Source: Tetracentron sinense
Lineage: Eukaryota > Streptophyta > Magnoliopsida > Trochodendrales > Trochodendraceae
Assembly (NCBI GenBank): GCA_015143295.1
Contig: CM026556.1
Span: 18,600,547 to 18,664,546 of the forward strand
Direction of reading: 5' to 3'
Length of the DNA: 64,000 nucleotides
The stretch's first letter is position 1, and every line of letters starts with the position of its first letter. The translations under genes were made by a program, and so were the position numbers. Shown piece by piece: positions 1 through 58,920 of the stretch. The notes below the pieces were generated by a model, which saw only the letters and a list, made by a program, of their open reading frames with translations, did no database searches and had not been told where the DNA came from.

Positions 1-462
1 TCTGTTGTTGGGAAGGGAGATGTTAAACCTCCTTCCCACCTTTCTTTAGCCTCTATTCTTCATGTTCCTGATTTTGCAACAAACCTTCTATATGTTAGTT
101 CACTTACCAAAAATCTAAATTGTAGGGTCATTTTTTCCCTTCTTACTATGTTTTTCAGGACTTGGTAACAAAAAAGACAATTGGAACGGGCCATGAAGCT
201 AATGGCCTTTATTTGTTGGTGCGACTCCCACTGTTCCTCTAACATTTCAATCTTATAGTAGTAGTAGTGTTAATAAAGAGCGTGTCCTATGTTGGCATGT
301 CCATCTTCGTCATATTTCCTTTCAGTACTTAAGAATTATGTTTCCAGACTTGTTTGCTTCTTTATCCATGTATGATCTTCTATGTGAAGTGTGTGAACTT
401 GCAAAGCATCATCGTGCTTCTTTTTCTCCTAGTACTTACAAAAATTCTATTGTGTTTGATAT
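1..462 (+). mobile_element. Ty1/copia (Ale/Retrofit-like) fragment, GAG-pre-integrase region
   Basis: The reading resembles the copia protease to GAG-pre-integrase stretch: a CWHVHLRH-type motif near 290-310 and CEVCELAKHH near 380-410, typical of Ale/Retrofit elements. The element is broken. The 5' part, including its LTR, is not in this copy but is visible in the second copy from 46,334. It is interrupted at 463 by a solo gypsy LTR and resumes at 2776. The 5-bp duplication gatat (458-462 and 2776-2780) marks that insertion. Confidence 0.85.
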
Positions 463-639
463 TGTAGAGACCCAAAAGTTTCATGTATTGGAACATGTGC
501 AATTGAATGAAAACATTGAAATTTTGTTCAAAACATCTCGATTAAAGTTATTCCATGTTTTAACTAAGTTAATATATGTTGTATGATCATTAACTAAGGT
601 TAAGATGAAGAATTAACAAAATAAACAAGCACAGGGCAA

Positions 640-805
640 ACCGGCCTACCGATCATCAAATCGGTTGACCGACTGGTGGGAAAAATGCATAAAACCAAAT
701 ACAGGGGCTTCACGGACCAAATTGGTCGACCGCCTGACCAAATCGGTCGACCGATCAGCAATCGGTCGACCGCCCAAGCCAACCGGTCAACCGCCTGGCC
801 ATAAA
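640..805. repeat. Cluster of CGGTCGACCG-type palindromes inside the solo LTR
   Basis: Several overlapping versions of a self-complementary decamer (tcggtcgaccga and relatives such as accggtcaaccg) occur in about 165 bp of the U3-like part of the LTR. The same cluster is at about 48,000-48,170. It could form hairpins or act as a repeated regulator binding site. Its role is unknown. Confidence 0.7.
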
Positions 806-1099
806 TTCGCCCAGAAATCCTAATTTGAGTAGAATTCCGAGAATTAGTAACTTTTAATAGACCCTACGCCTATAAATAGACCACTAACTCGTGGGAAATA
901 TGATTTTTAATATTCTAAGAGTTTTAGAAATCCCAGAGAGAGTTTGCAAAAGGTTTTACAAGGAGAAGAAGGAAAAGCTTAGACATCTCATCCAAGACCT
1001 TTCGCAAGCGATTGATCGTAGGGAAGCGATCGAGAGAGGTACTATATATTGTCATCCGTGATGTTAAGTTAATTATAAGGATTGAATATGATTGAATAA

Positions 1100-1282
1100 A
1101 CCACTGAGGGTGTAGCCCAGTGGTCACTTGGACGAACCATAAACCCGGAGGTCTCGAGTTCGATTCACTGGCTCCCCTCAATATCGGCTGCATAGGTTGG
1201 TGGTTTACTTATGTCAGCCCATGGGACTTAGACTGAGCTTTCAAGGCTCAAGATATCCACGGTTGTCAAAAAATATATATAT
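1100..1282 (+). mobile_element. tRNA-derived SINE
   Basis: It has a pol III A box tagcccagtgg (1113-1123), an exact fit to TRGCNNAGYGG, and a B box agttcgattca (1157-1167) close to GGTTCGANNCC, about 34 bp apart. The 3' end is A/TA-rich. Perfect 14-bp target duplications, atatgattgaataa, flank it at 1086-1099 and 1283-1296. It sits inside the solo gypsy LTR, so it is one of the youngest layers of the nest. I do not recognise the family name. It is not a working tRNA gene, because the tRNA fold is not kept beyond the promoter boxes. Confidence 0.85.
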
Positions 1283-1927
1283 ATATGATTGAATAAGGGT
1301 ATGTTAAGATTTAATAATTATGAATTGCATGCTAAGATTTGGAATGATGGAAAAGGGTACGGGATTCAATATTTGGAATGGTTATGGGAAATTAATATGA
1401 TATGACTACTGATTTATGGTTTTAAATTGATAATGATGTTATGAATTGTTATGTGATAATGGGAATGATGATATAGTGTTTCGGATGGATATGTGATTGA
1501 ATGGTAATGATGGAATTTTGATTATGGGTTTATGATCATGGAATTGGGGTTATTGGATTTTGATTATCGGATTGTTATACTATGATGTTGATAACCCTGT
1601 TAATATTATTGTAATGAAACAACCTACATGAATGGTAAGTATTTATGGTATGATGTTGACATGCTAAATTATAATTAATTATGCATTTATGATGGTTGAA
1701 TTTCGGATAGGTAAATACTTAAAGGATGATATTAATAACCCCGAATATTCTAACCATCGTTATATGGGAGGCTTTGGTGGAGTTTCGATGGTGAGATATC
1801 GGAATCTAAAAGATAACCTATATGAAAGTTAACCGTGACACTCAAGCACATTTTTCATAACATGGAAAGTTGTTAAGTACACAAGTCTCACATGATCATG
1901 CATGGATATGGAACTGACATAACTTTG

Positions 1928-2125
1928 GTATGTAACTGGTATGGACATTGAAATCTGGTATGAACCGTGGCATTGGAATCTGGTATGGACCTTGGTATTA
2001 GAATCTGGTATGGACCTTGGTATTGATTTCTGGTATGAACCTTGGTATTGAAATCTGGTATGGACCTTAGAATTGATATGACCTTGGAACCCTGGTACGG
2101 ACATGGGAATCTAGTATGAACTGAC
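1928..2125. repeat. 25-bp minisatellite in the solo LTR
   Basis: About seven degenerate units of the form tctggtatggaccttggtatt plus four variable bases follow each other head to tail. The array creates spurious minus-strand open frames rich in H, T, R, F and Q. The same array is at about 49,303-49,497. Such arrays are common in long Tekay-type LTRs. Confidence 0.85.
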
Positions 2126-2775
2126 ATATTTTTGTTATGATTTTACATGCATATCAACATATGCACATATATCACAAGTCTGCACGAAATGATGTGTTTT
2201 CCATACTCTGATTATGTAAAGTATGATATGTATGATATGACCTGAACTGTCTGATATGATATGATATGAGATATTGTTAATTATACTTTATTTATATACA
2301 CTGGGCATTTTCAATGCTCAGCCGAATTGTTACTGTTGGCAGGTTCAGGAGGATTTGACATTTGCGCTCCGGAACCTTGGATTGAAGAAGAGTATCCCGA
2401 AGAACAGGAAGGCGACTATCAAGAGGCACTAGGCAGAAGTTCATCTGGATCATTATCCGTATTACTGATCAAGTAATTACTTAGTTTTTTTTATTTCAGT
2501 TGAGAGAGATGTAATAAGACCCATTTTAAGTTGATGTTGCTTAGGTTTAATTTTGTAATTGAGATCATATGAGTGATCGGATTGTTTCTGTTAGTTGGTC
2601 AACAGTTAAAATGGTCTATATTATTGATGACTTCTATTGATTATTCATTTATTTGTAGGAGAAATATTTTGAGACTCACTTTTTAGAATGCTTTTTATGT
2701 TGATTAAGTTAATATAGATATGCAGTGTCACGGGTCCAAAGTTTCATTAACCAACATGGGATTTGGGGCGCGACA

Positions 2776-3061
2776 GATATCATTCATACCGATGTTTGGG
2801 ACCCTTCACCTGTTACCTCTATCACCGGTTATCGATATTTTGTGAGTTTTGTTAATGATTATTCTAAGTATACTTAGCTTTATCTCATAAAGTCAAAAAA
2901 TGAGGTATATACTATTTTCAAACAATTTCATATGTTGATTAAGACTCAATTTGGAAAAAGAATTAAGATTCTTCGGTCTGATCAAGGGCAAGAATATATA
3001 TGTGGGGGTTGATGGAATATTTGACTACAAATGGGATAGACCATCAGTACTCTTGTCCTTA
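2776..3061 (+). mobile_element. Ty1/copia (Ale-like) fragment, integrase core part
   Basis: It continues the copia of 1-462 after the solo LTR. The reading shows HTDVWDPSPV, GYRYFVSFVNDYS and RSDQGQEY, hallmarks of the copia integrase core. It is broken, and a further LTR-like element follows from about 3062 within the integrase region. Confidence 0.85.
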
Positions 3062-6000
3062 CTGTTGCCCAAGTATTGGCCCTAGAGGGGAGGTGAATAG
3101 AGTCTTGGTAAATTTAAGGTTCTAGTGTGGAATTTAAATCGTCAAAGAATTAGCAACTAAATCAGAAAATTAAATGCAAATTAAATGCAAGAGTTAGGGA
3201 AGACAAACACAGCGATCTTGTTCAGAGGTTTGGTAATCCCACCTCCATCCCCACCTCAAGCTACCCGCGAAAGGATTCACCACAATTTGATTATCGTACA
3301 AACTTCTTCCAGGTGAAGCCCAAATCTTTTACAATCATTTTCCGGGTAAGGACCAGACCTTTACAATCCCTCTTCCAGGTGTGGATCAAACCTTTCTTAC
3401 AAGGGAACAATCCTCCCTTAACTTTCACAAAGCCTTCAGCTTCAATGCAAGAATCCTCAGATTCTTGACTTAACAAATACAAGTTTTTAATTGGATTTGA
3501 ATCGGAAAATTGCTCCTTGATTGACCTGGATAAGATCCTTTTAAAGCTCTAATAAAATCTCTCAAGAGTTGAAATTGAATAGCTCAATAAACAGAGAATT
3601 GGGGATTTCGGGTTTTTCACTAATAATGTGAGAATTTAGCTTCTAGTGAATGATAATGATAATGGATTGATCAATAGTTATTTTTCATTCATACAAGATC
3701 TCATTTTATAGCTCAATTAAATTTATGGCCGTTAATGGGGTAATTAATGCAAACTACCGGTTTAAAAATAGTCGTTGAGGAACATTTACTGCGTTTTATG
3801 ATTCATCCAATCGACTGGATGGATCATCTAATTGGCTGGATAGGCAAAATTGCCATCCAAATGCAGTTTGGCCTAACCGAGCGTTTTTAGTTTATCCAGT
3901 CGGCTGAATGGCTTCATCAAGTATACTGGATGGTGTAGATTTTGCTCAAACTCAGTTTTTCAAGATCATAAAGATGGGATTTGATTCCAAGGCCTTCTAC
4001 CTCATCTTTAACTGTTAGACATATATGCCCACAAAAGTCATTCCGGAATTGTATGAGTCTACTTAATCAATAAAAGCATATTTTACATTCACACATTGTC
4101 TTCTACATTGGGTAACATATTAAAAGTATCTCATTAGATGAGACTATTTTATCCCTTAGGCAATATTGTAGGAAAACCATCCAATTAGTGATTAACTAAT
4201 TGCTAAGGAGATATGGTTTTCCGGTTCCTTGTAGACCTAGTATTGTTCTAAGTTATTCAGGATACATCTGGACAATGTATTCCTACTAATTTACACATTG
4301 TTAGTTCCATATGATAGAGTGATGAATCTCAATCACTGAGAGAATGGTCTTTTGACTAAGATGTGGATATAAGTAAGAAGTACTTATATTGCAACAGGAT
4401 CGCTCAGTGGATACCCTTAGAAATATATTGTCTATATATTTAGGGTAGTCCATTTGACAGATTGTCCTTAACCTGAGAGGTCGACATCTTCTCTAGTATT
4501 TGCCTATATAGCTTTGATGTAGCCAATCGTCAATGTCCAACACACCGGACTGAATACAGGCTCGTTGGGTTATGTACGCTATATTAGAAAAAGTTATGTG
4601 TACACTCAACAAGGATTCCACTACTCTTCTAGAGTAATTAATATTGAGTTGATACTTGTCAAAACCGGACTAGAAAAACCCAACACTGGTATTTATCGAT
4701 GAAATGGTTTTATCGAGAAGTTTATTTTCTATATAAAAGAAATGTAATTATAATTATTATTATTTCTTTTAAAGGATTTCTGAAATAGTTTTGAAAGTCC
4801 AAGTTTGACTAAAAGTATCAAAGAGAATGGGTTCTCAATATAAGCTAGGGATTAAAGACAGTATAAGATATTGTCCCGTAAGCTTATAACAATATTGGAA
4901 GTGGAGGGACGTATCTGTAAACAAATCTTGTGATAGAAATACTTGCAAGTAATTCTCTATTTTCTGGAGGTTAATCACATTGTGTTAATAGGCATTACTG
5001 TGATTAGTGGAAGCCAGGGATATAGATAAAATTTTATAATCCTAATGGAGTGATAGGAAATGGTTTCCTAGTAAAAATGCTTTAACCAAGAAAGGTTAAG
5101 CACTTGGTCCCACAACCAGAAATAGGAGATCCCCTTAGATCCCACACACTAGGACCTTCTTAAAGCTTTAAATTTAATTGATAATTAAATTAATTAATTT
5201 CTCTAAGTAAATCACTATATGGTATAGTGAAGCTCTAATATGTGGAATCACATTAGATGTGATAAACCAAATGGGTAGGACCTATTGGGAATTTTGATAA
5301 AAGATCAAAAGGTGACCTTAGGGTTTTGGAAACCCTAAGGGGCATGTGGAAGTGGGGCCCACCTAGGGTGGGACGCCCATTTCAAGAAAGAATCCTTGTT
5401 TTAATTAGTTTCTAATTAATTGACTCCTTATTGGATAAGGTTAGTTAGTTAGTTAGTTACTAATTAAAGAATCCTTATTTAAATGGGATTCCATTAGTTT
5501 GTTACTAATCAATAATTAGTTAGTTACTAATTAAAGATTCCTTATTAGATAAGGATAAGATTAGTTAGTTACTAATGGATAAGGTTAGTTTCTTTTAAGA
5601 TTAATCCTAATTAATTAGGAGAATAATCATAAAGGAAACAATTGAGGAAACCTCATTGGATTAGGATAAGGAGTCTTGGATTGCAAGCAATCCAAGAGAA
5701 GGCTATAAATAAAGGTGGATGCCCACCTTGGAGATTAATCTCTCCTCTCCTAAAAGCTCACGCCCCTCTCTGGCCCTCTTGGAAAGTGTACGGTCACCCC
5801 TTTTCTCCTCTTGGTTTGAATTTTTCTCTTAAGCAAAAGCAGAACCAATCTTGTTAAATCAAGAAAGGATCTTGAGATTCAAGAGAAGAAAAAAATCATA
5901 GAGCTGGAATTTGGAAGGGCCATTAGCTTCCAGTAGAAAAAGCTTTAAAGAAAAAGAAGAAGGTTCATGTGGATTGCGAAGGAGACTTGACGCTTGTGAA

Positions 6001-6640
6001 GTTTTGCCGGCTTTGTTCTATCGTGGATTTGACTTAACAATTTCAAAGTCGCAAAGGTGATTGTTATTTTATCCTTCATTGAATAAAATCAATTAGAATC
6101 TTAGTCAGATCTTGGGATTCGATGTATACCCCCCAAGAACTGTTTTTCGAAAATTAAAAAGAGGCATACTTTCATTAACATGATAAATACCATTTTTTTA
6201 GGTCCTTTAAATGATTTTTCAATTTGTTCTTAAGGTACCTATGGTCATTCTAAGCTTTTGAGTTTTTCAACACCAACCATTGAGGACTTTTTACAAAAGT
6301 CCTAAATACTATCAAAGTAAAAATTAATTCTAAAACCATTTTTGAGAGTCTTCTAACTTGATTCTTGGATCTTCAACAAGGCTTCAACTTTGAGATCTTC
6401 CAAGGCTTTTTCTTTTGATGGAGTTTAGCATGAACTCCAATTTGATCTTCTAGGATGATTGAATCTTCTTTTGAATTTAATTGCAATATTACTTGGATGC
6501 TTCTTTTTGCAACTTGGGTAGTAATTTCATGTCTCTTGAGTTGAATGTGTGACTAATACTCTTGTTCATTGAATTTTACATAAACTTCAAGGAAACATTG
6601 GTAGCAAAATAATAAATCAACTACATAGCATCATAGCAAC
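3062..6640 (+). mobile_element. Unclassified LTR-like element, itself interrupted
   Basis: From 3062 the copia reading is replaced by a sequence starting TGTTGCCCAAGTATTGG with the motif cctagaggggaggtgaata, a motif I associate with plant LTR-retroelement ends. Without the nested solo LTR (4013-6174) it is about 1.4 kb. No coding domain is visible. The right boundary, near 6640 where LINE sequence starts, is approximate and no target duplication was found. The first copy carries 38 bp (6238-6275) that the second lacks. Confidence 0.5.
4013..6174 (+). mobile_element. Solo LTR, copia-type long LTR (TGTTAGA family)
   Basis: It starts TGTTAGACATATATG and ends ATACTTTCA, flanked by the perfect 5-bp duplication ttaac (4008-4012, 6175-6179). 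Its length (2162 bp), TGTTAGA start and internal landmarks (ggaaa...ttttccggttccttgta near the 5' third) parallel the 5' LTR of the copia at 17,075-19,260, so the two are related families. No internal coding region is present. The small open frame at 5642-5857 inside it is not taken as a gene. Confidence 0.85.
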
Positions 6641-7674
6641 CGCCAGTTTGGTCGTGCTACATTTCAGGTTTAGAGTTGGGAGAGGGTTAGAGATTAGGTT
6701 CTGGATGGATGTGTGGTGTGGGTTAACTAAACTTAAGGATGATTTTGGTAATATCTTTCTGTTAGCTACCGATAGGGACACATTAGTTGGGGATTATTTC
6801 GAGAGGAGAGGAGAGAGGCTGTTGTGGTGTCCGAAGATGAGACGGGATATGTATGATTGGGAAATTGTTGAGTGGCTCAACTCTTAGAGCGCATTAGCTC
6901 TTCTTCCCTTGTTCCGAGATTAGGGATTGCAGGATTTGGTCTAGAAGCAACCATGTTCGTTTCTCAATAAGATCATGGTTACAATCATTGTGTCCAATAC
7001 CAGTTGGTCCGTTTCCTCATAGGCTTGTGTGGAATCCTGGTATTCCCTCTAAGGTATCTATCTTCCTATAGAATGCAACACTGAATAAAATTTTATCTTG
7101 CAATCAATTACAAAATAGAAGGTGGAGGATAGCTAACCATTGTTTTATGTGCCTCCAAGCAAAAGAGTTTGTGGATCATTTGCTCTTGCACTGCCCTATT
7201 GTGTTTGGTATATGGGGTTTTTTCCTTTCCCGATGGGTATGGACTGGGTCTTTCCTTCTTCCTTTAACAACTTCTTATCTTGCTAGTCACTGGTTGGTGT
7301 GGAAGGTGCTCATGAGGCGATTTGGTTGGTTCTCCCTAGAGCCATAGCATGGATGTTATGGAAAGAGCAAAATCTTACAGTTTTTTAGGACTCTTATTCG
7401 CCCCCTTTTCGCATATGCGATCGTATCCGATTAGTTGTCATGTAATGGGCTGGTTTACATGTCACAAAGGAGGATCTTAGGGAGAGGTTGTTTTAATCTT
7501 TTCGCAGCCACATCGGTATGAGCTGCCCCTCTCATTTGGTGAGGAGGTCCTGTATGAGTTTTGCTTTATTGGCGCTGAATTTATATGCATGTAAACTCTA
7601 GTTTTTATTGCCTCCTGGTCCTGTAGCTCTCACGTTCTTTTCATATATTCTGCTTGATTATCAATCAAAAAAAA
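6641..7674 (+). mobile_element. 5'-truncated L1-type LINE, 3' end of ORF2 with zf-RVT region
   Basis: The plus-strand readings at 6648-6887 (GRGLEIRFWMDVWCGLTKLKD) and 7147-7347 (CLQAKEFVDHLLLHCPI, with VFGIWGFFLSRW) match the region after reverse transcriptase in plant LINE ORF2, ending in the zinc-binding RVT domain with its C...H..HCP pattern. Stops and a frameshift separate the pieces, for example a TAG at 6885-6887. It ends in an 8-A tract at 7667-7674. The element is a dead 5'-truncated insertion of about 1 kb. Target duplications were not resolved. Confidence 0.8.
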
Positions 7675-7777
7675 TGTGGACAAAGTCAACACATATATTG
7701 CAAGTACTTGACAGTGAAAGGCGGAATAAATAAAAGTTATGAAGGAGAAAGCAAGTCTTTAATTCTATGTGTTATAC

Positions 7778-7852
7778 CTTTGAAGTGAGCTCCATCTTTT
7801 CAAGAGCACTCACGATTGAAGGAACTCTAAAGTTAGATTCTGGATGTGAATC
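7778..7852 (-). CDS. HDA14: Histone deacetylase (HDA14-like) exon, duplicate copy
   Basis: On the minus strand a 75-nt phase-0 exon, flanked by a cag acceptor and a GT donor (AAG/gtataac), encodes 25 residues beginning DSHPESNFRVP and ending EKMELTSK. This matches the region of plant HDA14-type deacetylases just after the GHN-E/D-SHPE motif, at the start of the catalytic domain (zinc-dependent removal of acetyl groups from lysine). It is identical to the exon at 55,115-55,189. The next exon of the gene (39,918-40,019) lies upstream of this copy in minus-strand terms, so this copy cannot splice to it in order. It is either a duplicated exon or part of a misplaced haplotype. The sequence match is fairly sure; the exact paralogue is less so. 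Confidence 0.65.
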
Positions 7853-8400
7853 CTGTTAGTAATAAATAACTGAAAAAATGTCATGAAAAGAATATATGCA
7901 AAACAGTGAACTTCTTACATAAGGAAATGACTATAAGAATAAGGAAATGGGTTCCCAAAGTCATAAAATCCAATTGATGTTACCGCAGAAAAAATCAGAT
8001 GAAAGAAAATCATCAACTTCATTCTGTGATGCAGCTCATCTAATTTCCTTATTTCGCTCATACATAGTACAAGAGAGCTTGCATCAGAGTATTACAATGA
8101 TTGAAAACTTCTTAGAGTGGGGCTCATATGAGTCAATAAAAGGGAAGATGGTGTGTATGTAACAAGCAATTGACGAGTAGATGATGCAGCATGTTCAATA
8201 TGGTTTTTCAAGAGTTATCCAACAAGTAGGTATGTTATGTAGTATGAGATGAACAAGAGTTTTGCGATAAGTAGGTGATGCAATGTGGTGTCTGCTACTC
8301 TATTAACAAGTAGGTGACAAGAATAGGTTATACAGTTTTAGATAGTTAGTAGGTGACAATATGTGATAAGTAGACAACCAGTAGGTCATAAGATAAGGGA
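7853..8400. other. Intron-like DNA with degenerate AAGTAGGTGAC repeats
   Basis: No gene is seen. On the minus strand this would lie upstream of the deacetylase exon. Between about 8165 and 8390 a short motif (aagtaggtgac or gataagtaggtgatg and variants) recurs about eight times at irregular spacing. The 71-codon plus-strand open frame at 7947-8162 has no recognisable domain. Confidence 0.5.
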
Positions 8401-8904
8401 ACTTAAACATTTTTAAATATAGGGATGGGGGTCATCCCTGTCAAGACGGTTTATAGAGTATTGAATGAGAACTTTTCTTTAGGGTTTCGCTAGGCATCAA
8501 TGTCAAGAGACGCAATGGATAGGAAAAAACATTACACGACACTTTAGTCCTAATGCTACTAACTGGCAATAAGTTCACATACAAATCAAGTACATGAGGA
8601 ACATTGGAAAGAAACAAGGATAGTACAGAAGAATTGGAACAATTAGCCAACTGAAGTTGGTAACCCAAATTAGGGACTATCAAAGTAGGAATATGATCTT
8701 GGGGATCTCTAGGTTGCTTAACATGAGGAGGTGACAATGTGCTACTTAGGCACATGGTACGGGTGCCAAGTGTCCAAGTATCTAGAGGTGTTTGGCATGG
8801 CAAGCTTTAGAAATCCCAATACTGCGGCATAGACAAATTTTTAAAAATGATTATATATATGAATATATTATAACTCATTTTTTAAAAATAATAATAAGAA
8901 GAAT

Positions 8905-9062
8905 ATAGAGAGCGGGGATCACTTGTTCCCATTTTTTTTTTAAGTGTAACCAAAGTTATAAAAAATACTTATATAGAGAATAGAGAGGAGGGGATCACCT
9001 GTCCCCATTTTTTTTTAAGTGTAACCAAAGTTATAAAAAATACTCATATAAAGAATAGAGAG
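8905..9062. repeat. Two tandem copies of a 76-bp unit
   Basis: The unit runs from gggatcac(c/t)tgt(c/t)ccc through a T tract, aagtgtaaccaaagtt and ataaaaaatact to agaatagag. Both units are present again near 56,252-56,405. Confidence 0.8.
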
Positions 9063-9076
9063 GAGCAAATGAGACA

Positions 9077-9097
9077 GGGAGGGAGGGAGGGAGGGAG
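9077..9097 (+). repeat. GGGA tandem run, possible G-quadruplex
   Basis: At least four consecutive gggagg-type triplet-G runs occur with single-A loops, which fits the G3+N1-7 quadruplex rule on the plus strand. The same run is near 56,421. Confidence 0.7.
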
Positions 9098-9199
9098 AAA
9101 CTTATTGATCAACATTGGTGCCGCTGCTCTCCTAGTAAGTTTTCCTCTATGTTGCCAAAAAAGCTATGAAAATTAACAAAAAGTTCCTAGCAATCCAAC

Positions 9200-9202
<3 letters not shown>

Positions 9203-9238
<36 letters not shown>
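9203..9238. repeat. (TA)n microsatellite
   Basis: A pure TA dinucleotide run of about 18 repeats. The matching run in the second copy (about 56,545-56,568) is clearly shorter, so this locus has changed length since the copies separated. Confidence 0.9.
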
Positions 9239-9241
<3 letters not shown>

Positions 9242-9849
9242 TTTATTTTAAATGGCATGGCATACTTGAAGTACCACGTGCCTAATTATAATGTTGACGT
9301 CACCTTGGTATGACATAGGCGCGTACTAAGGAGTGTCGTGCCGTGCCACGGAGTGTCATGTCGTGTCAAAGTGTCAGCACAACAAAATTTGGGAAAATTG
9401 TTGCAACATACATTAAGGTAGCATTACCTGGCATATGATCTAAAGCTCAGGAGTCTATGACCAAAGTGGATGGAACGGAAGAGGATGAAACATGAAGAGC
9501 ATTACCTACCTACTCAAATGAGACAGCAAATGTAGCAGAAAGAACATCATCCTTGGCACACTTCTAAAGTTTTATTATTATTCCTTAGAAATCAATATTT
9601 TTCCCCCATAGATTTCGACAGGCCAGAAGAAGTAGCTAATATCTGGAGGTCTAGAAGGTATTTGTTGGCAACTAGCATCATCTGAAGTAGCATTGTTAGT
9701 ACAAAGTTAACGGTGAGGATATCTATGCAACATATAGCAATACTCTCTAATACTGTAGTTATCCAGTTTTCCGATTTTTTCAAAATGTCCCAAATAGTAC
9801 CCGACTTTTTTGTCGAATGATCAATTCACGAAGTATTCGCAAGTTTTGT

Positions 9850-10897
9850 AAATCCACGTTACCATCGGCACCCTTCTTCCTTTTGTAAATCCATTTGCAT
9901 CCAATTGGCCTTATACCATCTGATGGATCTACTAAAGTCCAGACACCGTTGTCATACATGGAATTTTTTTCAGCATTCATGGCTTTATTCCATTGAGATG
10001 CATCTACATCCAATGTAGCTTCCTGATAGGTATTAGGATCTGTATCCTCATCATCAGGGGTAACTAGATAAACTTCATTATTGTAATACTGAAGTCTATC
10101 CGGTGGTCTGGAAACTCTTTCTGACCTTCTCAGTGGAACAGAATTAGGAGAAATTAATGTAAAAGGATTAGGTTCAGGTTGGTTACTTGCTGTGTCGTCT
10201 TTCATCTCATGAAATTCAACTTTCTTAAGAAGATCCATTTCTTCTTCCAAGAAAGTGGCATGAAGCCTAACAATTATTATTTGGTCTGCCTTGGAGTAGA
10301 AATAGAAACCCTTAATTTCTTTTGGATATCTTACAAAATTCCATTTCTCTGTCCTAAATTCCAACTTAGTGGGTTCAAGTTTGCGAACATGCGCAGGAAA
10401 ACCCCATACCCTTAGATGTTGTAAACTAGGTTTTCGCCCAGTCCACAATTCATAGGGTGTAAACGGAATAGACTTAGATGGAACCCGGTTCAGAATATAA
10501 ATGGCAATGTGTATAGCATATCCTCAAAAATATGAAGGAACATCGGCATGGCTCATCATAGAGCGAACTATATCCAATAAGGTCCGGTTTCTTCTTTCAG
10601 AAACTCCATTTTGTTGAGGAGGGGCAGGACTTGTCCATTGCGAGATAATCCCATTATCCCTTAAGTAATCCATAAACTCGTTGGTGAGGTATTCACCACC
10701 TCGATCTGATCGAAGTGTCTTTATGGATTTGTCAGTTTGATTCTCAACTTCCAATCTGAATTCTTTGAACTTTTCAAAGGTGTCAGATTTGTGTTGCATC
10801 AAATAGACATATCCATATCTGGAATAGTCATCGGTAAATGTGACAAAATACCGGTATTGACCTCGTGCAACAATGTTAAATGGACCACATACATCAC
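9850..10897 (-). mobile_element. Ty1/copia (Tork-like) integrase to start of reverse transcriptase
   Basis: Minus-strand readings contain integrase motifs (TLRSDRGGEYLTNEF, QQNGVSERRNRTLLD), the post-integrase linker (WTGRKPSLQHLRVWGFPAH) and the beginning of the copia reverse transcriptase domain (GVWTLVDPSDGIRPIGCKWI). It is the second half of the element whose gag and protease lie at 13,827-15,363 and whose 5' LTR is 17,075-19,260. A hAT transposon separates the halves. The element is broken, and its 3' part and 3' LTR are not seen. The boundary at about 9850 is approximate. Confidence 0.85.
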
Positions 10898-11959
10898 CAA
10901 GGTATTAAACCTCGGATTCAATGTAAACTTCAGTCGCCAAGGAAGTTGACTCAATTCGTGGAAGTTTAAGGAAGTCCAAGGAAGTTATGTAAAAATTAAA
11001 GAAGTTTAGGAAACTTTAAGGAAACATTGGAATTTTAAGATAAAACTTTAGATATTCAATATTTAAGCATGAATACACATCTAGAATTCCTTATATTACT
11101 GGATGCAAGTATGTGGAGTATCAAAAGTGAGAATAATGTTAAGTGACATGCGTTGTTTGCTTGTCTGTGCTGTAATTTATTCTTGATATTTCTTTGTATT
11201 GTAAAATTTATTTAACTACATTCTATTCTCTTTATTTTGAATGATTATTCATGTTAATTGTTTTAGAAATCTGAAAAATTTATTAATACACATTAAATTT
11301 GATAAATAATTGAAATTCAATTTAGTTTCTAAACTTATTTTTATCCGCAATTGATGAGCTCAATGTTTTTACAGGACTGCATCAATATGGGAAGAGGAGG
11401 AGATCGTTAAATTATCAAAGACCCTACATTAAGAGAAAAAGAAGAAGACTGTAATTTTATGTGAATGTGAAGTTGATGTAATTATGTAAAAAGAAATAGA
11501 TGTAATCTTATTTACATGTGTAGGACCCCTGTTCAAGTTTTTAATATTTTTTTATTTTTATGTAAACAAGCAAAACCTCTATGCCAAAATACAAATTACA
11601 AATGGTTTTTTTTTTCTATCTATATTTTTTTTAACATGTTAGAAAATATATATATATTTTTTTACAAATTTATAGAGAATTTTTTTTATCTGCATGAGTC
11701 GTGACCATGGCAAGAGAGGGAGATAGAGCGAACCGTGAATAGCATTCTAATGACATCCATTGTCTTGATTATGAAATAAAGATAAATAATACAATACATC
11801 TCATTTGAATATTACAATTTAATTTATGAAATACTATTAGAAAATTATTTAATTTAATAGGCATAATATACTAATAACAAAAATATAGTTTATAATAAGA
11901 TTAATTCTAACCACACTTTAATAATAAAATTATAATTTAGAACAAAAATTGAACATCTT

Positions 11960-12420: not shown

Positions 12421-12472
12421 ACCATGGTTTAAGAGCAGTTAAAGGGACTTAGCGAGGTTATGAAATCTGTTA

Positions 12473-41010: not shown

Positions 41011-41015
41011 TCAAT

Positions 41016-45625: not shown

Positions 45626-45689
45626 CAGATGGGTAATCCACACTTCCTGAGTATACAGTCGGTTGAGATGATGGAATACCAAGCTTGGT

Positions 45690-47825: not shown

Positions 47826-50144
47826 TGTAGAGACCCAAAAGTTTCATGTATTGGAACATGTGCAATTGAATGAAAACATTGAAATTTTGTTCAAAACATC
47901 TCGATGAAAGTTATTCCATGTTTTAACTAAGTTAATATATGTTGTATGATCATTAACTAAGGTTAAGATGAAGAAAATTAACAAAATAAACAAGCACAGG
48001 GCAAACCGGCCTACCGATCATCAAATCGGTTGACCGACTGGTGGGAAAAATGCATAAAACCATTTACAGGGGCTTCACGGACCAAATTGGTCGACCGCCT
48101 GACCAAACCGGTCGACCGATCAGCAATCGGTCGACCGCCCAAGCCAACCGGTCAACCGCCTAGCCATAAATTCGCCCAGAAATCCTAATTTGAGTAGAAT
48201 TCCGAGAATTAGTAACTTCTAATAGACCCTACGCCTATAAATAGACCACTAACTTGTGGGAAATATGATTTTTAATATTCTAAGAGTTTTAGAAATCCCA
48301 GAGAGAGTTTGCAAAAGGTTTTACAAGGAGAAGAAGGAAAAGCTTAGACATCTCATCCAAGACCTTTCGCAAGCGATTGATCGTAGGGAAGCGATCGAGA
48401 GAGGTACTATATATTGTCATCCGTGATGTTAAGTTAATTATAAGGATTGAATATGATTGAATAAACCACTGAGGGTGTAGCCCAGTGGTCACTTGGACGA
48501 ACCATAAACCCGGAGGTCTCGAGTTCGATTCACTGGCTCCCCTCAATATCGGCTGCATAGGTTGGTGGTTTACTTATGTCAGCCCATGGGACTTAGACTG
48601 AGCTTTCAAGGGTCAAGATATCCACGGTTGTCAAAAAATATATATATATATATATGATTGAATAAGGGTATGTTAAGATTTAATAATTATGAATTGCATG
48701 CTAAGATTTGGAATGATGGAAAAGGGTACGGGATTCAATATTTGGAATGGTTATGGGAAATTAATATGATATGACTACTGATTTATGGTTTTAAATTGAT
48801 AATGATGTTATGAATTGTTATGTGATAATGGGAATGATGATATAGTGTTTCGGATGGATATGTGATTGAATGGTAATGATGGAATTTTGATTATGGGTTT
48901 ATGATCATGGAATTGGGGTTATTGGATTTTGATTATCGGATTGTTATACTATGATGTTGATAACCCTGTTAATATTATTGTAATGAAACAACTTACATGA
49001 ATGGTAAGTATTTATGGTATGATGTTGACATGCTAAATTATAATTAATTATGCATTTATGATGGTTGAATTTCGGATAGGTAAATACTTAAAGGATGATA
49101 TTAATAACCCCGAATATTCTAACCATCGTTATATGGGAGGCTTTGGTGGAGTTTCGATGGTGAGATATCGGAATCTAAAAGATAACCTATATGAAAGTTA
49201 ACTGTGACACTCAAGCACATTTTTCATAACATGGAAAGTTGTTAAGTACACAAGTCTCACATGATCATGCATGGATATGGAACTGACATAACTTTGGTAT
49301 GTAACTGGTATGGACATTGAAATCTGGTATCGACCGTGGCATTGGAATCTGGTATGGACATTGGTATTAGAATCTGGTATGGACCTTGGTATTGATTTCT
49401 GGTATGAACCTTGGTATTGAAATCTGGTATGGACCTTAGAATTGATATGACCTTGGAACCCTGGTACGGACATGGGAATCTGGCATGAACTGACATATTT
49501 TTGTTATGATTTTACATGCATATCAACATATGCACATATATCACAAATCTGCACGAAATGATGTGTTTTCCATACTCTGATTATGTAAAGTATGATATGT
49601 ATGATATGACCTGAACTGTCTGATATGATATGATATGAGATATTGTTAATTATACTTTATTTATATACACTGGGCATTTTCAATGCTCAGCCAAATTGTT
49701 ACTGTCGGCAGGTTCAGGAGGATTTGACATTTGCGCTCCGGAACCTTGGATTAAGGAAGAGTATCCCGAAGAACAAGAAGGCGACTATCAAGAGGCACTA
49801 GGCAGAAGTTCATCTGGATCATTATCCGTATTACTGATCAAGTAATTACTTAGTTGTTTTTATTTCAGTTGAGAGAGATGTAATAAGACCCATTTTAAGT
49901 TGATGTTGCTTAGGTTTAATTTTGTAAATGAGATCATATGGGTGATCGGATTGTTTCTGTTAGTTGGTCAACAGTTAAAATGGTCTATATTATTGATGAC
50001 TTCTATTGATTATTCATTTATTTGTAGGAGAAATATTTTGAGACTCACTTTTTAGAATGCTTTTTATGTTGATTAAGTTAATATAGATATGCAGTGTCAC
50101 GGGTCCAAAGTTTCATTAACCAACATGGGATTTGGGGCGCGACA
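47826..50144. mobile_element. Solo gypsy LTR (second copy)
   Basis: Counterpart of 463-2775, with the same TG...CA ends and gatat duplication. It contains the second SINE copy and the second 25-bp array (about 49,303-49,497). Confidence 0.9.
48465..48651 (+). mobile_element. tRNA-derived SINE (second copy)
   Basis: Counterpart of 1100-1282, with 14-bp target duplications atatgattgaataa at 48,451-48,464 and 48,652-48,665. The terminal TA run is four bases longer than in copy 1, so the tail is the fast-changing part. Confidence 0.85.
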
Positions 50145-50431
50145 GATATCATTCATACCGATGTTTGGGACCCTTCACCTGTTACCTCTATCACTGGTTA
50201 TCGATATTTTGTGAGTTTTGTTAATGATTATTCTAAGTATACTTAGCTTTATCTCATAAAGTCAAAAAATGAGGTATATACTATTTTCAAACAATTTCAT
50301 ATGTTGATTAAGACTCAATTTGGAAAAAGAATTAAGATTCTTCGGTTTGATCAAGGGCAAGAATATATATGTGGGGGTTGATGGAATATTTGACTACAAA
50401 TGGGATAGACCATCAGTACTCTTGTCCTTAC
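50145..50431 (+). mobile_element. Ale-like copia integrase fragment (second copy)
   Basis: Counterpart of 2776-3061, with the same HTDVWDPSPV and NDYSKY readings. It is broken. Confidence 0.85.
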
Positions 50432-53400
50432 TGTTGCCCAAGTATTGGCCCTAGAGGGGAGGTGAATAGAGTCTTGGTAAATTTAAGGTTCTAGTGCGGA
50501 ATTTAAATCGTCAAAGAATTAGCAACTAAAAAGATTAAATAATACAAATCAGAAAATTAAATGCAAGAGTTAGGGAAGACAAACACAGCGATCTTGTTCA
50601 CGAGGTTTGGTAATCCCACCTGCATCCCCACCTCAAGCTACCCGCGAAAGGATTCACCACAATTTGATTATCGTACAAACTTCTTCTAGGTGAAGCCCAA
50701 ATCTTTTACAATCATTTTCCGGGTAAGGACCAGACCTTTACAATCCCTCTTCCAGGTGTGGATCAAACCTTTCTTACAAGGGAACAATCCTCCCTTAACT
50801 TTCACAAAACCTTCAGCTTCAATGCAAGAATCCTCAGATTCTTGACTTAACAAATACAAGTTTTTAATTAGATTTGAATCGGAAAATTGCTCCTTGATTG
50901 ACCTGGATAAGATCCTTTTAAAGCTCTAATAAAATCTCTCAAGAGTTGAAATTGAATAGCTCAATAAACAGAGAATTGGGGATTTCGGGTTTTTCACTAA
51001 TAATGTGAGAATTTAGCTTCTAGTGAATGATAATGATAATGGATTGATCAATAGTTATTTTTCATTCATACAAGATCTCATTTTATAGCTCAATTAAATT
51101 TATGGCCGTTAATGGGGTAATTAATGCAAACTACCGGTTTAAAAATAGTCGTTGAGGAACATTTACTGCGTTTTATGATTCATCCAATCGACTGGATGGA
51201 TCATCTAATTGGCTGGATAGGCAAAATTGCCATCCAAATGCAGTTTGGCCTAACCGAGCGTTTTTAGTTTATCCAGTCGGTTGAATGGCTTCATCAAGTA
51301 TACTGGATGGTGTAGATTTTGCTCAAACTCAGTTTTTCAAGATCATAAAGATGGGATTTGATTCCAAGGCCTTCTACCTCATCTTTAACTGTTAGACACA
51401 TATGCCCACAAAAGTCATTCCGGAATTGTATGAGTCTACTTAATCAATAAAAGCATATTTTACATTCACACATTGTCTTCTACATTGGGTAACATATTAA
51501 AAGTATCTCATTAGATGAGACTATTTTATCCCTTAGGCAATATTGTAGGAAAACCATCCAATTAGTGATTAACTAATTGCTAAGGAGATATGGTTTTCCG
51601 GTTCCTTGTAGACCTAGTATTGTTCTAAGTTATTCAGGATACATCTGGACAATGTATTCCTACTAACTTACACATTATTAGTTCCATATGATAAAGTGAT
51701 GAATCTCAATCACTGAGAGAATGGTCTTTTGACTAAGATGTGGATATAAGTAAGAAGTACTTATATTGCAACAGGATCGCTCAGTGGATACCCTTAGAAA
51801 TATATTGTCTATATATTTAGGGTAGTCTATTTGACAGATTGTCCTTAACCTGAGAGGTCGACATCTTCTCTAGTATTTGCCTATATAGCTTTGATGTAGC
51901 CAATCATCAATGTCCAACACCGGACTGAATACAAGCTCGTTGGGTTATGTACGCTATATTAGAAAAAGTTATGTGTACACTCAACAAGGATTCCACTACT
52001 CTTCTAGAGTAATTAATATTGAGTTGATACTTGTCAAAACCGGACTTGAAAAACCCAACACTGGTATTTATCGATGAAATGGTTTTATCGAGAAGTTTAT
52101 TTTCTATATAAAAGAAATGTAATTATAATTATTATTATTTCTTTTAAAGGATTTCTGAAATAGTTTTGAAAGTCCAAGTTTGACTAAAAGTATCAAAGAA
52201 AATGGGTTCTCAATATAAGCTAGGGATTAAAGACAGTATAAGATATTGTCCCGTAAGCTTATAACAATATTGGAAGTGGAGAGACGTATCTGTAAACAAA
52301 TCTTGTGATAGAAATACTTGCAAGTAATTCTTTATTTTCTGGAGGTTAATCACATTGTGTTAATAGGCATTACTGTGATTAGTGGAAGCCAGGGATATAG
52401 ATAAAATTTTATAATCCTAATGGAGTGAAAGGAAATGGTTTCCTAGTAACAATGCTTTAACCAAGAAAGGTTAAGCACTTGGTCCCACAACCAGAAATAG
52501 GAGATCCCCGTAGATCCCACACACTAGGACCTTCTTAAAGCTTTAAATTTAATTGATAATTAAATTAATTAATTTCTCTAAGTAAATCACTATATGGTAT
52601 AGTGAAGCTCTAATATGTGGAATCACATTAGATGTGATAAACCAAATGGGTAGGACCTATTGGGAATTTTGATAAAAGATCAAAAGGTGACCTTAGGGTT
52701 TTGGAAACCCTAAGGGGCATGTGGAAGTGAGGCCCACCTAGGGTGGGACGCCCATTTCAAGAAAGAATCCTTGTTTTAATTAGTTTCTAATTAATTGACT
52801 CCTTATTGGATAAGGTTAGTTAGTTAGTTAGTTACTAATTAAAGAATCCTTATTTAAATGGGATTCCATTAGTTTGTTACTAATCAATAATTAGTTAGTT
52901 ACTAATTAAAGATTCCTTATTAGATAAGGATAAGAATAGTTAGTTACTAATGGATAAGGTTAGTTTCTTTTAAGATTAATCCTAATTAATTAGGAGAATA
53001 ATCATAAAGGAAACAATTGAGGAAACCTCATTGGATTAGGATAAGGAGTCTTGGATTGCAAGCAATCCAAGAGAAGGCTATAAATAAAGGTGGATGCCCA
53101 CCTTGGAGATTAATCTCTCCGCTCCTAAAAGCTCACGCCCCTCTCTGCCCCTCTTGGAAAGTGTACGGTCACCCCTTTTCTCCTCTTGGTTTGAATTTTT
53201 CTCTTGAGCAAAAGCAGAACCAATCTTGTTAAATCAAGAAAGGATCTTGAGATTCAAGAGAAGAAAAAAATCATAGAGCTGGAATTTGGAAGGGCCATTA
53301 GCTTCCAGTAGAAAAAGTTTTAAAGAAAAAGAAGAAGGTTCATGTGGATTGCGAAGGAGACTTGACGCTTGTGAAGTTTTGCCGGCTTTGTTCTATCGTG

Positions 53401-53977
53401 GATTTGACTTAACAATTTCAAAGTCGCAAAGGTGATTGTTATTTTATCCTTCATTGAATAAAATCAATTAGAATCTTAGTCAGATCTTGGGATTCGATGT
53501 ATACCCCCCAAGAACTGTTTTTCGAAAATTAAAAAGAGGCATACTTTCATTAACATGATAAATACCATTTTTTTAGGTCCTTTAAATGATTTTTCAATTT
53601 GTTCTTAAGGTAACCATTGAGGACTTTTTACAAAAGTCCTAAATACTATCAAAGTAAAAATTAATTCTAAAACCATTTTTGAGAGTCTTCTAACTTGATT
53701 CTTGGATCTTCAACAAGGCTTCAACTTTGAGATCTTCCAAGGCTTTTTCTTTTGATGGAGTTTAGCATGAACTCCAATTTGATCTTCTAGGATGATTGAA
53801 TCTTCTTTTGAATTTAATTGCAATATTACTTGGATGCTTCTTTTTGCAACTTGGGTAGTAATTTCATGTCTCTTGAGTTGAATGTGTGACTAATACTCTT
53901 GTTCATTGAATTTTACATAAACTTCAAGGAAACATTGGTAGCAAAATAATAAATCAACTACATAGCATCATAGCAAC
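50432..53977 (+). mobile_element. Unclassified LTR-like element (second copy)
   Basis: Counterpart of 3062-6640, holding the solo LTR at 51,390-53,549. Near 50,520-50,570 the two copies differ by a short rearranged AT-rich stretch. The 38 bp present at 6238-6275 are absent here. Confidence 0.5.
51390..53549 (+). mobile_element. Solo copia-type LTR, TGTTAGA family (second copy)
   Basis: Counterpart of 4013-6174, flanked by ttaac at 51,385-51,389 and 53,550-53,554. It is 2160 bp. Confidence 0.85.
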
Positions 53978-55011
53978 CGCCAGTTTGGTCGTGCTACATT
54001 TCAGGTTTAGAGTTGGGAGAGGGTTAGAGATTAGGTTCTGGATGGATGTGTGGTGTGGGTTAACTAAACTTAAGGATGATTTTGGTAATATCTTTCTGTT
54101 AGCTACCGATAGTGACACATTAGTTGGGGATTATTTCGAGAGGAGAGGAGAGAGGCTGTTGTGGTGTCCGAAGATGAGACGGGATATGTATGATTGGGAA
54201 ATTGTTGAGTGGCTCAACTCTTAGAGCGCATTAGCTCTTCTTCCCTTGTTCCGAGATTAGGGATTGCAGGATTTGGTCTAGAAGCAACCATGTTCGTTTC
54301 TCAATAAGATCATGGTTACAATCATTGTGTCCAATACCAGTTGGTCCGTTTCCTCATAAGCTTGTGTGGAATCCTGGTATTCCCTCTAAGGTATCTATCT
54401 TCCTATAGAATGCAACACTGAATAAAATTTTATCTTGCAATCAATTACAAAGTAGAAGGTGGAGGATAGCTAACCATTGTTTTATGTGCCTCCAAGCAAA
54501 AGAGTTTGTGGATCATTTGCTCTTGCACTTCCCTATTGTGTTTGGTATATGGGGTTTTTTCCTTTCCCGATGGGTATGGACTGGGTCTTTCCTTCTTCCT
54601 TTAACAACTTCTTATCTTGCTAGTCACTGGTTGGTGTGGAAGGTGCTCATGAGGTGATTTGGTTGGTTCTCCCTGGAGCCATAGCATGGATGTTATGGAA
54701 AGAGCAAAATCTTACAGTTTTTGAGGACTCTTATTCGCCCCCTTTTCGCATATGCGATCGTATCCGATTAGTTGTCATGTAATGGGCGGGTTTACATGTC
54801 ACAAAGGAGGATCTTAGGGAGAGGTTGTTTTAATCTTTTCGCAGCCACATCGGTATGAGCTGCCCCTCTCATTTGGTGAGGAGGTCCTGTATGAGTTTTG
54901 CTTTATTGGCGCTGAATTTATATGCATGTAAACTCTAGTTTTTATTGCCTCCTGGTCCTGTAGCTCTCGCGTTCTTTTCATATATTCTGCTTGATTATCA
55001 ATCAAAAAAAA
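53978..55011 (+). mobile_element. 5'-truncated LINE with zf-RVT region (second copy)
   Basis: Counterpart of 6641-7674, ending in an A tract at about 55,004-55,011. It is dead by truncation, stops and a frameshift. Confidence 0.8.
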
Positions 55012-55114
55012 TGTGGACAAAGTCAACACATATATTGCAAGTACTTGACAGTGAAAGGCGGAATAAATAAAAGTTATGAAGGAGAAAGCAAGTCTTTAAA
55101 TCTATGTGTTATAC

Positions 55115-55189
55115 CTTTGAAGTGAGCTCCATCTTTTCAAGAGCACTCACGATTGAAGGAACTCTAAAGTTAGATTCTGGATGTGAATC
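55115..55189 (-). CDS. HDA14: Histone deacetylase (HDA14-like) exon, copy in gene order
   Basis: A 75-nt phase-0 minus-strand exon encoding 25 residues that begin DSHPESNFRVP and end EKMELTSK. The acceptor is ttactaacag and the donor AAG/gtataac. It is identical to 7778-7852. Unlike that copy, it lies in the correct order and strand to splice to the exon at 39,918-40,019, with both boundaries in phase 0. The preceding exon, expected to carry the VAPALGHN-type motif, should lie above 55,189. I did not find it before the LINE, so it is probably beyond the window. Confidence 0.7.
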
Positions 55190-55736
55190 CTGTTAGTAAT
55201 AAATAACTGAAAAAATGTCATGAAAAGAATATATGCAAAACAGTGAACTTCTTACATAAGGAAATGACTATAAGAATAAGGAAATGGGTTCCCAAAGTCA
55301 TAAAATCCAATTGATGTTACCACAGAAAAAATCAGATGAAAGAAAATCATCAACTTCATTCTGTGATGCAGCTCATCTAATTTCCTTATTTTGCTCATAC
55401 ATAGTACAAGAGAGCTTGCATCAGAGTATTACAATGATTGAAAACTTCTTAGAGTAGGGCTCATATGAGTCAATAAAAGGGAAGATGGTGTGTATGTAAC
55501 AAGCAATTGACGAGTAGATGATGCAGCATGTTCAATATGGTTTTTCAAGAGTTATCCAACAAGTAGGTATGTTATGTAGTATGAGATGAACAAGAGTTTT
55601 GCGATAAGTAGGTGATGCAATGTGGTGTCTGCTACTCTATTAACAAGTAGGTGACAAGAATAGGTTATACAGTTTTAGATAGTTAGTAGGTGACAATATG
55701 TGATAAGTAGACAACCAGTAGGTCATAAGATAAGGG
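55190..55736. other. Intron-like DNA with AAGTAGGTGAC repeats (second copy)
   Basis: Counterpart of 7853-8400. No gene seen. Confidence 0.5.
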
Positions 55737-57180
55737 AACTTAAACATTTTTAAATATAGGGGTGGGGGTCATCCCTGTCAAGACGGTTTATAGAGTATTG
55801 AATGAGAACTTTTCTTTAGGGTTTCGCTAGGCATCAATGTCAAGAGACGCAATGGATAGGAAAAAACATTACACGACACTTTAGTCCTAATGCTACTAAC
55901 TGGCAATAAGTTCACATACAAATCAAGTACATGAGGAACATTGGAAAGAAACAAGGATAGTACAGAAGAATTGGAACAATTAGCCAACTGAAGTTGGTAA
56001 CCCAAATTAGGGACTATCAAAGTAGGAATATGATCTTGGGGATCTCTAGGTTGCTTAACATGAGGAGGTGACAATGTGCTACTTAGGCACATGGTACGGG
56101 TGCAAAGTGTCCAAGTATCTAGAGGTGTTTGGCATGGCAAGCTCTAGAAATCCCAATACTGCGGCACAGACATATAGATTTTTAAAAATGATTATATATA
56201 TGAATATATTATAACTCATTTTTTAAAAATAATAATAAGAAGAATATAGAGAGTGGGGATCACTTGTTCCCATTTTTTTTTTAAGTGTAACCAAAGTTAT
56301 AAAAAATACTTATATAGAGACTAGAGAGGAGGGGATCACCTGTCCCCATTTTTTTTTTAAGTGTAACCAAAGTTATAAAAAATACTCATATAAAGAATAG
56401 AGAGGAGCAAATGAGACAGGGAGGGAGGGAGGGAGGGAGAAACTTATTGATCAACATTGGTGCCGCTACTCTCCTAGTAAGTTTTCCTCTATGTTGCCAA
56501 AAAAGCTATGAAAATTAACAAAAAGTTCCTAGCAATCCAACATTTATATATATATATATATATATATTGTTTTTATTTTAAATGGCATGGCATACTTGAA
56601 GTACCACGTGCCTAATTATAATGTCGACGTCACCTTGGTATGACATAGGCGCGTACTAAGGAGTGTCGTGCCGTGCCACGGAGTGTCATGTCGTGTCAAA
56701 GTGTCAGCACAACAAAATTTGGGAAAATTGTTGCAACATACATTAAGGTAGCATTACCTGTCATATGATCTAAAGCTCAGGAGTCTATGACCAAAGTGGA
56801 TGGAACGGAAGAGGATGAAACATGAAGAGCATTACCTACCTACTCAAATGAGACAGCAAATGTAGCAGAAAGAACATCATCCTTGGCACACTTCTAAAGT
56901 CGTAGTATTATTCCTTAGAAATCAATATTTTTCCCCCATAGATTTCGACAGGCCAGAAGAAGTAGCTAATATCTGGAGGTCTAGAAGGTATTTGTTGGCA
57001 ACTAGCATCATCTGAAGTAGCATTGTTAGTGCAAAGTTAACGGTGAGGATATCTATGCAACATATAGCAATACTCTCTAATACTGTAGTTATCCAGTTTT
57101 CCGATTTTTTCAAAATGTCCCAAATAGTACCCGACTTTTTTGTCGAATGATCAATTCACGAAGTATTCGCAAGTTTTGTA
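55737..57180 (-). mobile_element. Ty1/copia protease and GAG-pre-integrase fragment (second copy)
   Basis: Counterpart of 8400-9850, with the same internal non-autonomous insertion (about 56,082-56,735), 76-bp tandem repeat, GGGA run and a shorter TA run. It is broken. Confidence 0.7.
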
Positions 57181-58224
57181 AATCCACGTTACCATCGGCA
57201 CCCTTCTTCCTTTTGTAAATCCATTTGCATCCAATTGGCCTTATACCATCCGGTGGATCTACTAAAGTCCAGACACCGTTGTCATACATGGAATCTTTTT
57301 CAGCATTCATGGCTTTATTCCATTGAGATGCATCTACATCCAATGTAGCTTCCTGATAAGTATTAGGATCTGTATCCTCATCATCAGGGGTAACTAAATA
57401 AACTTCATTATTGTAATACTGAAGTCTATCCGGTGGTCTGGAAACTCTTTCTGACCTTCTCAGTGGAACAGAATTAGGAGAAATTAATGTAAAAGGATTA
57501 GGTTCAGGTTGGTTACTTGCTGTGTCGTCTTTCATCTCATGAAATTCAACTTTCTTAAGGAGATCCATTTCTTCTTCCAAGAAAGTGGCATGAAGCCTAA
57601 CAACTATTATTTGGTCTGCCTTGGAGTAGAAATAGAAACCCTTAATTTCTTTTGGATATCTTACAAAATTCCATTTCTCTGTCCTAAATTCCAACTTAGT
57701 GGGTTCAAGTTTGCAAACATGCGCAGGAAAACCCCATACCCTTAGATGTTGTAAACTAGGTTTTCGCCCAGTCCACAATTCATAGGGTGTAAACAGAATA
57801 GACTTAGATGGAACCCGGTTCAGAATATAAATGGCAATTTGTATAGCATATCCTCAAAAATATGAAGGAACATCGGCATGGCTCATCATAGAGCGAACCA
57901 TATCCAATAAGGTCCGGTTTCTTCTTTCAGAAACTCCATTTTGTTGAGGGGCAGGACTTGTCCATTGCGAGATAATCCCATTATCCCTTAAGTAATCCAT
58001 AAACTCGTTGGTGAGGTATTCACCACCTCGATCTGATCGAAGTGTCTTTATGGATTTGTCAGTTTGATTCTCAACTTCCAATCTGAATTCTTTGAACTTT
58101 TCAAAGGTGTCAGATTTGTGTTGCATCAAATAGACATATCCATATCTGGAATAGTCATCGGTAAATGTGACAAAATACCGGTATTGACCTCGTGCAACAA
58201 TGTTAAATGGACCACATACATCAC
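57181..58224 (-). mobile_element. Tork-like copia integrase to reverse transcriptase start (second copy)
   Basis: Counterpart of 9850-10,897, with the same integrase and linker motifs on the minus strand. It is broken. Confidence 0.85.
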
Positions 58225-58905
58225 CAAGGTATTAAACCTCGGATTCGGTGTAAACTTCAGTCGCCAAGGAAGTTGACTCAATTCGTGGAAGTTTAAGGAA
58301 GTCCAAGGAAGTTATGTAAAAATTAAAGAAGTTTAGGAAACTTTAAGGAAACATTGGAATTTTAAGATAAAACTTTAGATATTCAATATTTAAGCATGAA
58401 TACACATCTAGAATTCCTTATATTACTGGATGCAAGTATGTGGAGTATCAAAAGTGAGAATAATGTTAAGTGACATGCGTTGTTTGCTTGTCTGTGCTGT
58501 AATTTATTCTTGATATTTCTTTGTATTGTAAAATTTATTTAACTACATTTTATTCTCTTTATTTTGAATGATTATTCATGTTAATTGTTTTAGAAATCTG
58601 AAAAATTTATGAATACACATTAAATTTGATAAATAATTGAAATTCAATTTAGTTTCTAAACTTATTTTTATCCGCAATTGATGAGCTCAATGTTTTTACA
58701 GGACTGCATCAATATGAGAAGAGGAGGAGATCGTTAAATTATCAGAGACCCTACATTAAGAGAAAAAGAAGAAGACTGTAATTTTATGTGAATGTGAAGT
58801 TAATGTAATTATGTAAAAAGAAATAGATGTAATCTTATTTACATGTGTAGGACCCCTGTTCAAGTTTTTAATATTTTTTTATTTTTATGTAAACAAGCAA
58901 AACCT
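58225..58905. mobile_element. Left end of the hAT element (second copy)
   Basis: It starts CAAGGTATTAAACCTCGG after the target duplication half tacatcac (58,217-58,224). It matches 10,898-11,578 and then stops at the LINE junction. Its right end, if still present, lies beyond the LINE and outside the window. Confidence 0.9.
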
Positions 58906-58920
58906 GTTCAAGTTTTTAAT

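Follow-up and report, generated by a model that had tools for sequence, protein, structure and literature searches.

A 64,000-nucleotide stretch of chromosome C6 of Tetracentron sinense (18,600,547-18,664,546; the window hereafter) contains a near-identical direct repeat, which is most probably an unpurged heterozygous contig overlap, with one locus assembled twice, rather than a real duplication (probability roughly 0.93). On this explanation, a single chromosomal locus would have been assembled once per haplotype. The neighbouring contig ends overlap by ~44-54 kb and differ by ~1% substitutions and several transposable element (TE) insertions, and the assembler would therefore have left them unmerged. 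Scaffolding would then have placed the two contigs one after the other across a short gap, so that their overlap looks like a 'tandem' copy at a spacing of 47 kb. The two versions are presumably alleles of one individual. An unmerged overlap is supported by homology that runs as a dovetail up to the gap, by the recurrence of the arrangement at the next gap, by the single-copy state of two places probed outside the overlaps, by the noisy contig ends, and by a shared long terminal repeat (LTR) element with its target-site duplication.

The repeat belongs to a dovetail overlap of two contigs

The chromosome stretch compared was 264 kb of C6, in which negative positions lie left of base 1 of the window and positions above 64,000 lie right of it. 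Two runs of N were found in this stretch, at -89,129 to -89,054 (76 N) and 24,483-24,494 (12 N). These gaps delimit contig 0, contig 1 (-89,053 to 24,482, 113,536 bases) and contig 2 (from 24,495). An earlier reading of the window by a model that had only the letters and their open reading frames (the sequence-only reading) had matched 1-11,578 with 47,361-58,905 and placed one copy on each side of the 12-N gap. Self-comparison bore out both statements: the block ends were exact and the overall identity was 98.8%, with 1-6,237 matching 47,361-53,612 and 6,275-11,578 matching 53,612-58,905, each at 98.79%. The gap splits the window as described (Table 1).

The limits of this block are partly set by the window edge and by one insertion, and the homology goes on to the left of base 1. 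The colinear blocks of contig 1 and contig 2 are, respectively, -19,481 to -11,930 and 24,503-32,047; -8,802 to -2,516 and 38,277-44,591; -2,515 to -173 and 44,901-47,260; -102 to 11,578 and 47,258-58,905; and 11,585-24,482 and 65,650-78,531. The last pair gives a positive answer to the question, raised with the original match, of whether homology to 11,579-24,482 resumes right of 64,000. At the gap, the homology stops only at the final base of contig 1 (24,482 = 78,531) and, on the other side, at base nine of contig 2 (24,503 = -19,481), so that the two contigs form a dovetail with the 12-N gap at the seam. The overlap measures ~44.0 kb in contig 1 and ~54.0 kb in contig 2.

Table 1. Features in and next to the window, in window coordinates
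Feature	Position	Strand	Details
Copy A of the block, contig 1 interior	1-11,578	+	98.8% to 47,361-58,905
Remainder of contig 1, up to the gap; homology with 65,650-78,531	11,585-24,482	+	96.8% overall
Error-rich contig 1 end	22,000-24,482		42 indel events/kb (101 over 2,409 aligned bases)
12-N gap, seam of contig 1 and contig 2	24,483-24,494		Sole N run in the window
Error-rich contig 2 start	24,495-25,500		57 indel events/kb over the first 456 aligned bases (26 events), then 8 events over 995 bases
LTR element, contig 2 starts inside	24,503-34,254	+	5' LTR cut by the contig start; reverse transcriptase/RNase H at 28,450-29,817
Contig 2 counterpart of contig 1 -8,802 to -173	38,277-47,260	+	98.7-98.8%
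309-bp stretch, contig 2 only	44,592-44,900		Contig 1/contig 2 comparison
Copy B of the block, contig 2 interior	47,361-58,905	+	98.8% to 1-11,578
Long interspersed nuclear element (LINE), contig 2 only (window part 58,906-64,000)	58,906-65,649	+	DUF4283, endonuclease, reverse transcriptase and zf-RVT domains

A like arrangement flanks the neighbouring gap

Insertions apart, colinearity with contig 1 (-85,847 to -41,515) extends over contig 0 from -139,999, the left edge of the sequence compared, to -89,131, and the match reaches the end of contig 0 (-89,130). The extra stretches in this overlap amount to 4.6 kb in contig 1 and 11 kb in contig 0. Dovetail geometry was therefore present at both gaps of the 264 kb (2/2), and the flanks of the 76-N gap appear to be a second false duplication of the same kind as that at the 12-N gap. 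Along contig 1, the first ~47.5 kb is common with contig 0 (44.3 kb of it compared directly), the following ~22 kb has no partner in the 264 kb, and the last ~44 kb is common with contig 2. This layout is the appearance that would be expected of two haplotypes tiled with unmerged overlaps.

The suggestion of the sequence-only reading that alternative haplotypes were placed in series is thus supported by the dovetail at the 12-N gap and the like pattern at the 76-N gap, as well as by the single copy at two places outside the overlaps and the noisy ends described below. Its view of the first contig as a haplotig needs a small adjustment: contig 1 does overlap the downstream DNA, but it is not fully contained in it, since its ~22-kb middle is partnerless and its first ~47 kb overlaps contig 0.

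Two places probed outside the overlaps are single-copy

Probes were searched in the genome of 1,161,278,568 bases (1,479 records), in which C1-C24 span 64.6 to 33.1 Mb, C25 and C26 measure 21.7 kb and 42.3 kb, and the N50 is 45.5 Mb (C11). The best 40 candidates were scored in each search, so that weaker relatives have at least the copy numbers counted. For the 2-kb probe taken from 5,000-7,000, the 1.16-Gb genome gave two full-length matches (100% and 98%), and the next one listed was partial, at 87%, which excludes chance as the source of the repeat. Outside the overlaps, the sequence was single-copy at the two places probed (2/2). The probe from the middle of contig 1 (-37,000 to -35,000) and that from contig 2 right of the overlap (99,000-102,000) each had one full-length match, the next best listed being partial at 83% and 86%, respectively.

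The 5,000-7,000 probe also returned six loci on other chromosomes, three of which were taken as 4.2-kb probes. Each had one full-length match, and no near-identical second copy was found for any of them among the matches listed (0/3). The artefact is accordingly not everywhere in the assembly, and three probes are too few to give its rate.

Contig ends at the gaps are rich in errors

Inside the overlap, the two versions differ by ~1 indel/kb, with 9 indels in 8,389 aligned bases (1.1/kb) at 11,585-19,999. Substitutions in the same interval are ~1.1% and climb toward the gap. In contrast, 41-57 indels/kb were found in 1-kb bins at the three contig ends compared, namely those closing contig 0 (35 indels in 857 aligned bases) and contig 1 and that opening contig 2. 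Substitutions were 2.7-3.3% in the bins of 20,000-21,999 and 4.5-9.7% in four of the five end bins, the other one (22,000-22,999) being at 1.0%.

A repeat near 78,200-78,460 was compared with eight third copies, which had been fetched with the contig 2 version as probe and hence with a bias favouring contig 2. All of them matched the contig 2 interior (8/8; best 81.3%, 4 gaps), and four of the eight matched the contig 1 end at an equal threshold (best 77.2%, 11 gaps). These matches suggest that the errors belong to the contig ends rather than to the contig 2 interior. The noisy ends fit poorly polished long-read sequence. LR_Gapcloser is described as able to fill a gap from both sides with reads that have not been corrected (PMC6324547), and we infer that the noisy ends were produced by long-read gap-filling.

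The repeat itself, ~330 nt long at ~78,195-78,530, has many genomic relatives at 74-85%, several of which are split by ~63-88 bp absent here. The short stretch of it that was translated held no long open frame.

An LTR element shared by both versions predates their split

The overlap has its left margin within an LTR element, probably of gypsy type to judge by its domains, inside which contig 2 starts (Table 1). Its counterpart in contig 1 lies at -20,512 to -11,930. Contig 1 keeps the left border, where TTGTC is followed by TGTAACG, and contig 2 keeps the right border, where GTCACA is followed by TTGTC (34,255-34,259). The same 5-bp sequence on opposite borders points to a single insertion event, as a chance match of five bases has a probability of ~1 in 1,000. 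Furthermore, the LTRs of the element show 3.3% divergence over 545 aligned bases in contig 1, whereas its internal part differs by 1.46% between the contigs, indicating that the insertion is older than the split of the two versions. Separate insertions at -20,512 and 24,503 had first been suspected from an identity of 96.8% and from offsets of 52 kb and 44 kb; this possibility was dropped in view of the matching TTGTC and the internal divergence.

Several insertions are present in one version only

According to the sequence-only reading, every nested insertion is common to both copies. This did not hold, as the LINE, the 309-bp stretch, two stretches of ~70 bp and 37 bp (at -172 to -103 and 6,238-6,274, respectively) and a stretch of 3.1 kb or 6.2 kb differ between the versions. 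The LINE is 6.7 kb long, and its site is unbroken in contig 1, where the 6 bp CTATGC stand. At least 16 further genomic copies of the host repeat match nearly the whole of a 628-base contig 1 probe over the LINE site. CTATGC was present in the contig 1 locus and in two of the five other loci inspected; for two of the others the match listed lay elsewhere, and for one none was listed. Contig 1 most likely represents the empty site, and contig 2 would have gained the LINE with a loss of 6 bp. The LINE insertion shows no obvious target duplication.

The 3.1-kb stretch is found only in contig 1, at -11,929 to -8,803, and carries a 525-amino-acid DUF659 open frame; in contig 2, its place is taken by 6.2 kb made up partly of LTR sequence. 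In the other overlap, an 11-kb LTR element occurs only in contig 0 (~-110,859 to -99,815) with GATGT on each side, and the single GATGT of contig 1 marks the empty site. The LTRs of this element mismatch at ~2.15% (49/2,279). The copies therefore carry real differences beyond sequencing error, comprising 0.8-1.6% substitutions, ~1 indel/kb inside and TE insertions with empty sites. TE insertion polymorphisms are normal between plant haplotypes. They would be expected between young paralogues as well, and do not discriminate between an allelic and a paralogous origin of the two versions.

Divergence and alternative explanations

The published T. sinense assembly comprises 24 chromosomes of 65 to 33 Mb with a scaffold N50 of 45 Mb and a contig N50 of 2.8 Mb, and places 1.07 Gb of 1.17 Gb in chromosomes, against a k-mer genome size estimate of 1.12 Gb (PMC7709256). 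It was made by merging SMARTdenovo and WTDBG2 assemblies, followed by Hi-C scaffolding with 3D-DNA, two rounds of LR_Gapcloser and five of Pilon (PMC7709256). In the parts of that paper that deal with the pipeline, redundancy removal with Redundans is mentioned for unplaced contigs only, and purging of placed contigs is unmentioned (PMC7709256).

Some observations weigh against an unmerged overlap. Inside it lies a stretch, 3.1 kb long in contig 1 and 6.2 kb in contig 2, that is unmatched between them. Outside the noisy ends, substitutions are ~0.8-1.1% between contigs 1 and 2 (1.46% in the shared LTR element) and 0.9-1.6% between contigs 0 and 1. This local divergence of 0.8-1.6% is well above the published mean heterozygosity of 0.22% estimated from k-mers (PMC7709256), and would fit a young paralogous duplication too. 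However, heterotype duplications are reported as the main source of false duplications, with locally divergent haplotypes escaping merging (PMC9516828). Because assemblers merge similar haplotypes and keep divergent ones, the overlaps that survive are a sample biased toward divergence, and an excess over 0.22% is thus not strong evidence for paralogy. It is mainly on account of this excess that a small share of the probability is kept for a real duplication.

The real duplication in question would be a segmental duplication in tandem, recent and at least 44-54 kb long, with the assembly broken at the junction of its near-identical copies, and we consider it very unlikely. It would account for copies that are adjacent, in direct orientation and more diverged than the published mean, and the gap, whose run of N need not give its true size, could hide the junction. 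Nevertheless, the junction must then fall in the 12-N gap, and another one again in the gap ~113 kb away, which amounts to two separate duplications. The error-rich ends at the seams, together with a published pipeline that mentions no purging of placed contigs in the parts concerned (PMC7709256), provide a simpler cause. No sequence joining the end of the first copy to the start of the second was found in the window, where the junction is a run of N.

It is improbable to the same degree that a genuine, young tandem duplication of ~45-55 kb lies at each of the two gaps, the two being adjacent within a TE-dense part of C6 and each having twins that differ by a new LINE or LTR insertion; if so, a relict tree would carry a series of recent segmental duplications. 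Least credible is an old duplication, left by whole-genome duplication homoeologues or ectopic TE exchange and lying side by side by chance, for although two whole-genome duplications are published for Trochodendrales, they date to ~82 and 59 million years (PMC7709256), yet the non-coding, TE-rich DNA here reaches 98.8% identity and shares an insertion with its target-site duplication, both copies are on one chromosome, and no 98-99% homoeologue on another chromosome was among the matches listed for three C6 probes.

Relation to known assembly errors

An unmerged overlap of haplotypes is a known kind of assembly error, without biological novelty. Like the heterotype false duplications described previously (PMC9516828), the case at hand has adjacent near-identical copies on one scaffold, a gap between them, and versions, presumably haplotypes, that locally diverge more than average. 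As in the heterozygous contig overlaps addressed by purge_dups (PMC7203741), two primary contigs overlap partially at their ends, and neither is a contained haplotig. Criteria for heterotype duplications include read depth and haploid k-mers (PMC9516828), and purge_dups uses depth (PMC7203741), whereas the present case was judged by sequence comparison. The order of contig 1, a short N gap and contig 2, with the shared region written twice, also resembles the unmerged scaffolder overlaps treated in the BiSCoT paper, in which 515 such regions with a mean of 47 kb are given for a human assembly (PMC7649008). The Bionano tool concerned leaves 13-N gaps (PMC7649008), whereas those found here have 12 and 76 N. 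Since Hi-C with 3D-DNA and LR_Gapcloser are the steps described (PMC7709256), the tool was probably a different one. A Bionano origin of the 12-N gap, suggested by its length, was not adopted on these grounds and because the neighbouring gap has 76 N.

Until the T. sinense assembly has been purged, a direct repeat on either side of a short N gap should consequently not enter counts of tandem duplications, TE copies or gene-family expansions. Approximately 91 kb of the 113.5-kb contig 1 is presumably counted twice. The overlaps are of some use in that they probably display two haplotypes side by side, with their insertion polymorphisms such as the LINE and the 11-kb LTR element.

Within contig 2, 105,956-110,594 and 115,658-119,771 show partial matches to each other (85-93.5%), ~7-12 kb apart, which are probably nested TE copies.

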